A DNA stretch of 35,834 nt from Caulobacter sp. D5 (lineage in GTDB: Bacteria > Pseudomonadota > Alphaproteobacteria > Caulobacterales > Caulobacteraceae): assembly GCF_003185805.1 (NCBI RefSeq), contig NZ_QHJY01000414.1, positions 1 through 35,834 on the forward strand. The letters are read 5' to 3'. This document shows positions 22,686 through 25,315 of this stretch, piece after piece (the first letter of the stretch is position 1; every line of letters starts with the position of its first letter). Position numbers and translations under genes: made by a program. The notes under the pieces were generated by a model. The model made no database searches, was not told where the DNA came from, and saw only the letters and a list, made by a program, of their open reading frames with translations.

Positions 22686-23789
22686 TCACGGCCGCACGAT
22701 CCTCCCGCCCGTCATCGCCTCACGCACCCCCGTCGTCCCGGGGAAGCTGATCGGCAGCCCTCGCGCCGTCCGGGCCGCGAGATAGGCGAACGCCTCGGCC
22801 TCGATCGCATCCCCACGCCAGCCGTAGTCCTCGGCCGTCTTCACCGGCACCGGGCAGCGCTCGGTCAGCACCTTCATGATCTGCGGATTGTGCCGCCCGC
22901 CGCCGCAGACGATCAGGGCGCTGGGCCGCGCGCCGTGCTCGAAGGCCTTGACCACGGCCTCGGCGGTGAAGGCCACCAGGGTGGCCGCCGCGTCCTCGGC
23001 CGACAGCGGCTCGACCAGATCGAGCGGGAAGTCGTAGCGGTCCAGCGACTTGGGCGCGGGGCCGGCGAAATAGGCGCTGGCCAGGAACCGCTCGAGGATC
23101 GCTTCGTCCACCCTGCCCGCGGCGGCCAGCCGGCCGTTCTCGTCGAACCGGCCCAGGCCCCGCTCCTGCAGCATCAGGTCGATCATGCCGTTGCCGGGAC
23201 CGGTGTCGAAGGCCAGCAACGTGCCGTCCGCGTCGACCAGGGTGATGTTGGCCACCCCGCCGATGTTCAGGGCCGCCACCGGCGCGGCCAGGCCCGAGGC
23301 CCGGGCGCGGGCGTCGTGATAGATCGGGGCCAGCGGCGCGCCCTGCCCGCCCGCCGCCACGTCGGCGGTGCGGAAGTCGAAGGCCACCGGCCGCCCGGTC
23401 AGGCGCGCCAGCCGCTCGGCGTCGAGCAGTTGCACCGTCCGGCCGATCCGCTCGGGCGTTGGCCGCTCGTGCAGCACCGTCTGGCCGTGCACGCCCAGCA
23501 AGTCGAAGTCGCTCCAGGAAAGGCCATGCTCGGCCAGGAAGCTCTCGGCGGCATGGAAATGCTCGTCGGCCACGACCTGGGCGGCCTCGGCGAAGATCTC
23601 CGGCTCGGGTCGCTCGCGCGGCCAGCCGCGGGCGATCTCGGTCGCCACCAGCAGCAGATCGCGCGTCTCCTCGCGCAGCTTGCGTTCGCCCGAGGGCCCG
23701 AAGGCCTGGATCGTCTCACCGTCGGTCTCGAGCACCGCCATGTCGACCGCGTCGAGCGAGGTGCCGGTCATGAATCCCAGAATGCGCAT
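22686..23789 (-). CDS. anmK: Anhydro-N-acetylmuramic acid kinase AnmK
   Basis: A 367-residue sugar kinase of the ASKHA fold. It converts 1,6-anhydro-N-acetylmuramic acid released from cell wall turnover to MurNAc-6-phosphate. Family motifs are 'MTGTSLDAVD' near the start, 'GVHGQTVLH' in the middle, 'NIGGVANIT', 'AFDTGPGNGMID' and the late 'VCGGGRHNP'. The canonical start reads MSGTSxDGxD, so this copy varies slightly. ATG 23789 begins at the motif; a longer reading adds residues overlapping the tyrS promoter. It is divergent from tyrS. Confidence 0.94.
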   Translation of the reverse strand: MRILGFMTGTSLDAVDMAVLETDGETIQAFGPSGERKLREETRDLLLVATEIARGWPRERPEPEIFAEAAQVVADEHFHAAESFLAEHGLSWSDFDLLGVHGQTVLHERPTPERIGRTVQLLDAERLARLTGRPVAFDFRTADVAAGGQGAPLAPIYHDARARASGLAAPVAALNIGGVANITLVDADGTLLAFDTGPGNGMIDLMLQERGLGRFDENGRLAAAGRVDEAILERFLASAYFAGPAPKSLDRYDFPLDLVEPLSAEDAAATLVAFTAEAVVKAFEHGARPSALIVCGGGRHNPQIMKVLTERCPVPVKTAEDYGWRGDAIEAEAFAYLAARTARGLPISFPGTTGVREAMTGGRIVRP

Positions 23790-23796
23790 GGGTCCG

Positions 23797-23826
23797 TTGA
23801 CTGCCACGGCCCGCGTCGGGTAGCTA
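23797..23826 (+). promoter_or_regulatory. Candidate promoter of the tyrS leader
   Basis: -35 TTGACT (23797-23802), an 18-base spacer and -10 TAGCTA (23821-23826). The expected start point, six to seven bases after the -10, falls on or next to the A of ATG 23833, so the leader frame would be leaderless. Confidence 0.55.
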
Positions 23827-23832
23827 GGCCCC

Positions 23833-23883
23833 ATGACCGCCAAGGCCCTCCGTACCCGCGCCTATTATCGCCCGCTGATCTAG
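23833..23883 (+). CDS. Putative 16-residue Tyr-Tyr leader peptide of tyrS
   Basis: The frame ATG 23833 to TAG 23883 encodes [16 protein letters not shown]. Two adjacent TAT codons (23863-23868) are followed at once by a 7-base-pair GC hairpin that includes the peptide stop codon. It lies 104 bases before the tyrosyl-tRNA synthetase gene and has no ribosome site, but a promoter is placed for leaderless translation. By analogy with amino-acid biosynthesis and aminoacyl-tRNA synthetase attenuators (trp, his, phe), stalling at Tyr codons when charged tRNA-Tyr is low could change the downstream fold. The function is inferred; the frame and hairpin are seen. Confidence 0.55.
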
Positions 23884-23933
23884 CGGGCGAACGACCGGTC
23901 ATGTCGACGCACCGCCACCTGGCCGGCGATGCG
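23869..23933 (+). promoter_or_regulatory. Possible attenuator: competing hairpins in the tyrS leader
   Basis: Segment 1 CGCCCGC (23869-23875) pairs perfectly with segment 2 GCGGGCG (23883-23889). Segment 3 (23908-23916) pairs with segment 4 (23925-23933) with one mismatch. Segment 2 can instead pair with 23908-23915 (seven pairs, one bulged A). This is the 1:2 + 3:4 versus 2:3 layout of classical attenuators. No U-tract follows segment 4, so control of translation or of Rho is more likely than intrinsic termination. Confidence 0.45.
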
Positions 23934-23953
23934 TCCCTCCCCTTACCGACGAC

Positions 23954-23981
23954 GTCTCCGGCGCACAGCCTTCAAGGAGAC
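23954..23981 (+). promoter_or_regulatory. Hairpin covering the tyrS ribosome binding site
   Basis: GTCTCC (23954-23959) is complementary to GGAGAC (23976-23981), which overlaps the AAGGAG ribosome site (23974-23979) seven bases before ATG 23987. When folded it would hide the site. Confidence 0.5.
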
Positions 23982-23986
23982 TATCG

Positions 23987-25315
23987 ATGAAACCCTCGCC
24001 ACAGACCGCCCCGCCCGTGCTAGACGCGCGGACCAGCGATACAGAGAGTCGAGCCATGTCCGCGCCGCAGAGCTTCAAGTCCGATTTCCTCAAGACCCTG
24101 CAGGCGCGCGGCTACATCCACCAGATCACCCATCCGGAAGAGCTGGATACGGCGGCCGCCTCGGGCGTCGTCACCGCCTACATCGGCTTCGACGCGACAG
24201 CCCCCAGCCTGCACGTCGGCAGCTTGATCCAGATCATGATGCTGCGCCGCCTGCAGCAGGCCGGCCACAAGCCGATCGTCCTGATGGGCGGCGGCACGAC
24301 CAAGGTCGGCGATCCGACGGGCAAGGACGAAAGCCGCAAGCTGCTCAGCGACGCCGACATCCAGGCCAACATCGCCGGCATCAAGCAGGTCTTCGCCAAG
24401 TTCCTGACCTTCGGCGACGGCCCGACCGACGCCATTATGGTCGACAACGACGAGTGGCTGAGCAAGTTCGGCTACGTGCAGTTCCTGCGCGACTACGGCG
24501 TGCACTTCACGGTCAACCGCATGCTGGCCTTCGACTCGGTGAAGCTGCGGCTCGAGCGCGAGCAGCCGATGACCTTCCTCGAGTTCAACTACATGCTGAT
24601 GCAGGCCACCGACTTCCTGGAGCTGAACCGCAAGTACGGCTGCGTGCTGCAGATGGGCGGCTCGGACCAGTGGGGCAACATCCTCAACGGGGTCGAGCTG
24701 ACCCGTCGGGTCGACCAGAAGGCCGCCTTCGGCCTGACGACGCCGCTGCTGGCCACGGCCTCGGGCGCCAAGATGGGCAAAACCATGTCGGGCGCCGTCT
24801 GGCTGAACGCCGAGCAGCTGAGCCCGTACGACTACTGGCAGTTCTGGCGCAACACCGAGGACGCCGACGTGGGCCGCTTCCTGAAGCTGTTCACCGACCT
24901 GCCGCTGGAGACGATCGCCGAGCTGGAAGCCCTGCCGGGCGCCCAGATCAACGACGCCAAGAAGGTGCTGGCCGACCAGGCCACCCGCATGGCCCACGGC
25001 GAGGAAGCCGCCAAGGCCGCCCGCGACGCCGCCGAGAAGGCCTTCGAACAGGGCGCGCTGTCGGCCGACCTGCCGACGGTCGAGATCGCCGCGTCCGTCC
25101 TGGCCGAAGGCGTGCCGCTGGCCGTGCTGGCCACCGACATCGGCCTCACCGCCTCGCGCGGCGAGGCCCGTCGCCTGGCCCAAGGCGGCGGCCTGCGCCT
25201 GAACGACGCTCAGGAGAAGGACGGCGACCGCCTGGTGACCAACGCCGACCTCGTGGACGGCGTGGTCAAGCTTGGTCAGGGCAAGAAGAAGATCGTGCTG
25301 GTCAAGCCGGTCTGA
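23987..25315 (+). CDS. tyrS: Tyrosyl-tRNA synthetase
   Basis: A 442-residue class I synthetase that charges tRNA-Tyr. The HIGH-like motif is 'LHVGS' after '[10 protein letters not shown]'. Tyrosine-pocket residues appear in '[11 protein letters not shown]' and 'MGGSDQWGN', and the KMSKS-like motif is 'KMGKT'. The C-terminal ~80 residues form an S4-type RNA-binding domain ('[16 protein letters not shown]'). ATG 23987 has an excellent AAGGAG site; ATG 24056 is an in-frame alternative nearer the start of homology but with a weaker site. The upstream leader is described separately. Confidence 0.95.

Follow-up and report, generated by a model that had tools for sequence, protein, structure and literature searches.

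The tyrosyl-tRNA synthetase gene tyrS of Caulobacter sp. D5 is probably controlled, at odds we put at about three in four, by tyrosine-responsive translational attenuation, in which a predicted leaderless leader peptide with two adjacent tyrosine codons would set the state of a chain of competing RNA helices. It is near certain that the leader and the competing RNA structure are conserved, very likely that they serve tyrosine-responsive attenuation of tyrS whatever the output, and likely that this output is translation rather than termination; from the arrangement of the parts we infer that ribosomes stall on the leader tyrosine codons and that tyrosine hunger raises TyrS. The sequence-based support comes from the leader itself, the position of its tyrosine codons, the spacing of its promoter, the complementarity of helix arms within their own species and a near lack of T-runs. 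The attenuator that the original prediction placed before tyrS is supported, with the amendment that it probably acts on translation initiation, through a sequestered Shine-Dalgarno sequence, and not on termination.

The window (the whole stretch of DNA analysed, 35,834 nucleotides) comes from a 5.29-Mb genome assembled as 587 contigs, and the features of its tyrS leader are collected in Table 1. Of the tyrS genes on named public contigs, those most similar belong to Caulobacter. Read directly, the promoter, the 16-codon frame and its tyrosine codons are as first described, and the proposed pairing of segments 2 and 3 is indeed complementary, with one bulged base. The hairpin beside the tyrosine codons, put forward as a perfect 7-bp stem, exists and is longer, at 10 bp, and the 3:4 stem is real and reaches two bases beyond the stretch originally considered. 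Two elements were absent from the original prediction: a helix, P0, in which the start of the leader pairs just beyond hairpin 1:2, and a further pair of segments, 5 and 6 (together 23953-23981 in the window), which sequester the Shine-Dalgarno sequence of an ATG at 23987. Six bases separate the -10 element from the leader ATG, and the leader stop codon opens the second arm of hairpin 1:2. The segments can pair in two alternative chains, 1:2, 3:4 and 5:6 versus 2:3 and 4:5, with segment 6 being the Shine-Dalgarno of the ATG at 23987, which is in frame with tyrS.

Table 1. Features of the tyrS leader region in the window.
Feature	Position	Strand	Details
anmK	22686-23789	-	divergent neighbour of tyrS; start codon 23789-23787
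Promoter P1	23797-23826	+	-35 TTGACT 23797-23802, 18-base spacer, -10 TAGCTA 23821-23826
Leader-peptide frame, candidate leaderless	23833-23883	+	16 codons and stop TAG 23881-23883
Control codons TAT TAT (Tyr-Tyr)	23863-23868	+	read directly
Hairpin 1:2	23868-23890	+	23868-23877 with 23881-23890, 10 bp
Helix P0	23833-23902	+	23833-23839 (start codon plus four bases) with 23896-23902; in the minimum free energy fold
Hairpin 3:4	23906-23935	+	23906-23916 with 23925-23935
Alternative pairing 2:3	23883-23915	+	23883-23889 with 23908-23915, one bulged base
Alternative pairing 4:5	23920-23965	+	23920-23931 with 23953-23965
Hairpin 5:6	23954-23981	+	anti-Shine-Dalgarno GTCTCC 23954-23959 with GGAGAC 23976-23981
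Shine-Dalgarno AAGGAG of upstream tyrS start	23974-23979	+	read directly
tyrS from upstream ATG (23987)	23987-25315	+	442 aa; usual start MSAPQ at 24056
TGCTAGAC, probable -10 of second promoter P2	24018-24025	+	motif TGnTAn[AC]n

Conservation of the short frame and its tyrosine codons in relatives had been set beforehand as a test of the prediction. A search of the genus covered 61 genomes, 59 of them with tyrS, and a search of the family 159 genomes, all with tyrS. Upstream DNA was obtained for 60 loci from the 59 genus genomes and from another 98 genomes, 5 of them in the genus and 93 among the 128 from other genera (the 35 left out include the sole genome of genus g16), giving a Caulobacteraceae set of 158 loci from 20 of 21 genera. 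One genome (G028) has two tyrS genes; at one of them (L133) the leader resembles those of g7, and the contig may be foreign. Frames of 10-24 codons that contain Tyr-Tyr and start no more than 320 bases upstream of tyrS were found at 120 of the 158 loci, and the same rule applied to first-order Markov shuffles of these regions returned 10 of 3160. These frames occur in 13 of the 20 genera, with counts of 62/65 in the window's own genus, 29/30 in g7, 8/20 in g3 and 0/6 in g14.

All 120 leaders start with ATG, 118 are 15-17 codons long (the other two have 21), and in 114 the tyrosine pair occupies codons 11-12. The residues before the pair vary widely between genera (MIAKAALAAL, MSAHRRTLTT and MFAARAITGL are examples) around this fixed position. 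The residue after it is arginine in 102 of the 120, alanine in 15, and valine, proline and glycine in one each. The recurrent arginine would suit an arrest peptide that responds, through its nascent chain, to a ligand (free tyrosine, for example) instead of to tRNA charging; we consider this highly improbable, since it is the position and number of the tyrosines that hold and not the residues before them, and since the arginine codon also falls in or beside the first arm of hairpin 1:2.

The tyrosine codons are themselves biased. The pairs are TATTAC in 104 leaders, TATTAT in 10, TACTAC in five and TACTAT in one, so that the first codon is TAT in 114/120 and the second TAC in 109/120. TAT is used for 19 of 224 tyrosine codons in tyrS itself (30 genus loci) and for 18 of 55 in nine genes of the window, and a role as codons therefore does not alone explain the choice of the first one. 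The bias could be taken to mean that a TATTAC block is kept for its DNA sequence, perhaps within a promoter of the divergent anmK, with the frame incidental. We give this account almost no credence: the N-terminal motif of anmK was found upstream in 85 of the 120 loci and not in the other 35, the tyrosine codons hold a constant position relative to the ATG and are shortly followed by a stop, and both synonymous codons occur at each position.

Thirty-eight of the 158 loci lack the Tyr-Tyr frame. Five of these retain both the promoter and a leader that has a single tyrosine codon (L136, L183, L205, L208 and L216), and at two others (L162 and L215) the leader persists without any; a chance-like frame at L178 was excluded from this count, and by the same rule the remaining loci have no such leader. 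At L135 the sequence SYSYR precedes a matching hairpin, with no ATG in place. At L013 of a close relative (genome G005), whose TyrS is 89% identical, the promoter and the adjacent ATG are kept and the frame runs for 67 codons without tyrosine into the upstream tyrS start, a stop closing that start before tyrS; the switch has apparently been lost there. Outside the family, tyrS was present in 63 sampled genomes, and 28 loci drawn from them, one per other alphaproteobacterial family, held no convincing leader; AT-rich frames at two (L277 and L279) look like chance and were rejected. Among 32 further public contigs of lower identity, selected by their titles, the search returned one chance-like frame (L095); at least one of these contigs (L084) is actually a family member and no outside case.

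Upstream of the leader, TTGAC lies at -38 to -35 relative to the ATG in 119 of the 120 Tyr-Tyr loci, and the remaining locus is cut by a contig end. From this fixed distance we infer a leaderless start: P1 would begin the RNA at or beside the ATG at 23833. A scan with the E. coli sigma-70 consensus, whose hexamers are stricter than those of P1, did not list P1.

We assessed the helices with a swap test, which asks whether a segment pairs better with the partner from its own species than with that of another species, needs no alignment register, and is scored by the number of permutations at or below the observed energy. From the 120 leaders, 52 were kept by dropping those longer than 17 codons or at least 82% identical to one already kept; 41 of them have a recognised Shine-Dalgarno, and the 11 without such a start were omitted from 4:5, from 5:6 and from the comparison of ribosome positions below. 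None of 20000 permutations reached the observed energy for P0, 1:2, 2:3, 3:4 or 4:5, and 61 of 20000 did so for 5:6, while the control combinations (nucleotides 14-30 with P0', 5' end with distal, 3:5 and 4:6) were flat. The 1:2, 2:3 and 3:4 pairings originally proposed are thus each better within species than between species. With permutation confined to g1, g3, g7, g21 and a pooled rest, the counts per 10000 were 0 for P0, 0 for 1:2, 49 for 2:3, 0 for 3:4, 5 for 4:5 and 513 for 5:6, and the controls 1:3, 3:5, 4:6 and 2:5 were again flat. By covariation, 5:6 is the least certain helix, at about 0.05 once stratified, as one might anticipate if the Shine-Dalgarno itself makes up its core.

These figures come from a leader set and anchors (alignment A1) that were revised once, to the 52 leaders below 82% identity, after a first swap result. 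That first run used 15 leaders below 65% identity with poor anchors for segment 5; per 20000 permutations, P0 (4) and 1:2 (3) were significant, 4:5 (936, 13 leaders) was borderline, and 2:3 (11858) and 5:6 (7778, 7 leaders) were flat.

Compensatory change is seen in P0, where bases 3-8 contain GAUCG, GUUCG, GACCG, GAACG, GGUCG or GCGCG, each with its exact complement in at least one species; an exact complement to the own 5-mer is present in 35 of 52 leaders, compared with 780 of the 2402 cross pairs whose 5' words differ. For 4:5 the longest uninterrupted stem differs little, with means of 6.83 bp for own and 6.42 bp for cross pairs, and reaches at least 7 bp in 24 of 41 own pairs and 45% of cross pairs. 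RNAalifold predicted no pairs on a MAFFT alignment of the 52 leaders, and both P0' and the arms change register from clade to clade, so that the case for covariation is built on the swap test. When the best hairpin following 1:2 was sought without guidance at the 120 loci, 3:4 came out in some species and the overlapping 4:5 in others, and by eye CTCC pairs with GGAG over the next Shine-Dalgarno in many loci.

Folded as a single sequence, the 138-base RNA of the window is only moderately more stable than its shuffles (z -2.24), and the evidence is therefore comparative. All our fold models are equilibrium folds of isolated RNA. The free minimum of the window RNA, at -61.8 kcal/mol, combines P0, 1:2, 3:4 and 5:6, the blocked state. 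With a ribosome on the tyrosine codons (bases to 23878 held), 2:3 with 4:5 becomes best, at -38.6 versus -37.5 for 3:4 with 5:6, a preference of 1.1 kcal/mol; with the ribosome at the stop codon, 3:4 with 5:6 is favoured over 4:5 by 5.0 (-32.9 versus -27.9). When the stalled position was compared with the stop position in the 41 leaders, counting changes above 0.05, the probability of 4:5 rose in 21 and fell in none, that of 3:4 fell in 26 and rose in none, and that of the Shine-Dalgarno pairing with segment 5 fell in 28 and rose in one. Shuffling the stretch of segment 2 lowered the mean change in the probability of 4:5 from 0.286 to 0.154, keeping about half, and moved that of the Shine-Dalgarno pairing with segment 5 from -0.281 no further than to -0.227; much of what the model shows is therefore independent of segment 2. 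Mutually exclusive pairings are supported by the swap tests, and in the constrained equilibrium folds the choice between them depends on ribosome position.

What would the relay control? Accessibility of the Shine-Dalgarno was computed over 102 loci, the 18 of the 120 in which none was recognised, by a rule slightly different from that used for the 52 leaders, being left out. Its mean unpaired probability was 0.067 in the free RNA and 0.071 when a ribosome stood at the stop codon, and shuffles gave 0.202 at the stop and 0.234 when stalled, the real sites being more buried. As expected of a translational attenuator, the Shine-Dalgarno is sequestered in the default state, both across the 102 loci and in the minimum free energy fold of the window. 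Its net opening is small at equilibrium, from a mean of 0.071 at the stop to 0.134 when stalled; stalling raised the value by more than 0.1 in 32 of the 102 loci and lowered it in four. In 92 loci the start served by this Shine-Dalgarno precedes the first aligned TyrS residue, and in all but one of them it is in frame with an open path to tyrS; of these 91 loci, 80 gain at least 17 residues and 11 have in effect the ordinary start; at 10 further loci it is the tyrS start itself. The buried Shine-Dalgarno and the in-frame upstream start together point to translation of TyrS, often in a longer form, as the controlled step. In the window, 23987-24055 encodes a conserved in-frame N-terminal extension of TyrS of 23 residues.

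Classical transcription attenuation, as in E. coli trp or pheST, would employ the same leader, control codons and competition of 2:3 with 3:4, with 3:4 or 5:6 serving as terminator and a stalled ribosome permitting read-through into tyrS, and a pyrimidine-rich stretch does follow 3:4 in the window. We regard it as unlikely: there are no terminator-like sites in 23700-24100, and from the leader stop to tyrS no T-run exceeds 3 in 116 of the 120 loci, whereas by eye a terminator-like stem upstream of pheS in the same genome (L245) has TTTTT; segments 5 and 6 would also have no part to play. The near lack of T-runs itself makes translation initiation, not termination, the probable output. Less likely still is an attenuator in which the position of the ribosome sets the exposure of a C-rich stretch to Rho, instead of or besides that of the Shine-Dalgarno; such a stretch follows 3:4 (23936-23950) and 23700-24100 contains no intrinsic terminator, but the own-species pairing of 4:5 and 5:6 would be left unexplained.

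A second promoter, P2, probably supplies a basal, unattenuated tyrS transcript. Its motif, TGnTAn[AC]n, resembles the Caulobacter -10 element and occurs, as raw counts, between leader and tyrS in 97 of the 120 Tyr-Tyr loci and upstream of tyrS in 29 of the 38 others. The window copy, read as codons, includes CTA, a codon absent from the window tyrS, and the recurring VLD/VLE of the TyrS extension is encoded by this probable -10.

Together, these data suggest the following model for translational attenuation of tyrS. The RNA would start at the ATG of the 16-codon leader, so that a 70S ribosome could start translating immediately. When Tyr-tRNA is in sufficient supply, this ribosome would reach the stop codon and cover segments 1 and 2, allowing 3:4 to form; segment 5 would then be free for 5:6, the Shine-Dalgarno would be blocked and translation of TyrS would stay low. 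Once the ribosome has gone, 1:2 and P0 would lock the blocked state and bury the leader's own start codon. When Tyr-tRNA is short, the ribosome would wait on the paired tyrosine codons, hold segment 1 and free segment 2 for 2:3, which in turn would free segment 4 for 4:5; with segment 5 occupied, the Shine-Dalgarno would open and more of the enzyme that charges tRNA-Tyr would be made. Inside the region, P2 would add a basal unattenuated supply.

Similar leaders may precede other synthetase genes. Upstream of hisS in the window genome (L249) lies an ATG frame rich in histidine, MTRTPHHHGCHHHPTSPRGIGRVRTL, as also at L250, L288, L294, L297, L298 and L306, and frames of 8-40 codons with at least four histidines occur upstream in 12 of 30 family loci (L312 being wrongly anchored); judged by eye, the RNA that follows might fold into a comparable relay of hairpins reaching the start site. 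The RNA family RF01528 (Caulobacter sRNA CC3513) matches the hisS leader region of L249 (2150-2314) with 98.4 bits on the strand opposite hisS, and this sRNA may be a histidine leader or antisense to one. Short ATG frames with RWR lie upstream of trpS in 18 of 30 family loci (among them L240, L242, L313, L315, L317, L320, L321, L331 and L339), with MAFNGSRARRWRNWL in the window genome. Upstream regions of pheS in four genomes yielded no phenylalanine leader by the rule used.

A broader design may tentatively be drawn for the clade. Leaderless leaders at the 5' end of the RNA would control synthetase genes (tyrS, and trpS and hisS in part of the family) through a six-segment relay to a Shine-Dalgarno instead of a terminator; a covarying helix would bury the leaderless start after one reading, so that only ribosomes loading during RNA synthesis would read the leader; and an attenuated and a constitutive promoter would yield long and short TyrS from a single gene. 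This design would be new as a combination, and we put the odds that it holds at somewhat less than even.

The original remark that peptide-based control of tyrS had not been described in alphaproteobacteria agrees with the open-access literature searched, in which we found no tyrS leader peptide in this class. A work on attenuation of amino acid and aminoacyl-tRNA operons, reportedly by Lopatovskaya et al. in 2010, may list this leader. Within the open-access literature searched, the tyrS leader would be the first case of a tyrosyl-tRNA synthetase under leader-peptide control. It occurs in the clade of the model organism Caulobacter and would join in one leader two subjects usually studied apart, leaderless translation and attenuation. 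Lacking a 5' UTR, such a leader would make a one-shot, co-transcriptional gating of ribosomes by a leaderless start testable. It would also give a reason for the conserved in-frame upstream start of tyrS, which could yield a longer TyrS.

Several known systems share parts of this arrangement. In Firmicutes, tyrS is controlled by a T-box, an RNA that binds tRNA directly and takes uncharged tRNA-Tyr as its signal. Gene and signal are the same here, but the leader has no T-box match: Rfam gave no T-box or other match at gathering score in the window, and a search of 23780-24070 with E up to 5 gave one match of E 4.4, to a Caulobacter sRNA family, far below gathering score. Attenuators of gammaproteobacteria, pheST included, have a leader with repeated cognate codons and exclusive hairpins and are coupled to the aminoacylation of one tRNA. 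The likeness to the tyrS leader lies in a cognate-codon leader and mutually exclusive hairpins before a synthetase gene, and pheST is named as a gammaproteobacterial example of attenuation in front of a synthetase in an earlier paper (PMC1262725, 2005). Unlike that type, the tyrS leader concerns tyrosine and tyrS, would lack a 5' UTR, has no U-tract terminator, and carries two further elements, a 4:5/5:6 chain that ends at the Shine-Dalgarno and a helix, P0, that covers the start codon.

Closer in phylogeny is C. crescentus, for which excerpts of a study report 375 leaderless mRNAs and, by ribosome profiling, a small leader CDS upstream of trpS (PMC4117421, 2014). That leader shares with ours the clade, a synthetase gene and a short upstream CDS; it concerns tryptophan, and the excerpts give no mechanism for it. 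The RWR frames described above are in line with it, and the name tyrS is absent from the paper's main text. In translational attenuators of the ermC type, a ribosome stalled on the leader by its drug-bound nascent peptide frees a Shine-Dalgarno. The tyrS leader shares with these the logic of 1:2 and 3:4 against 2:3 and a ribosome-binding site as output, and differs in a stall that would come from codon hunger, in six segments instead of four and in a putatively leaderless frame.
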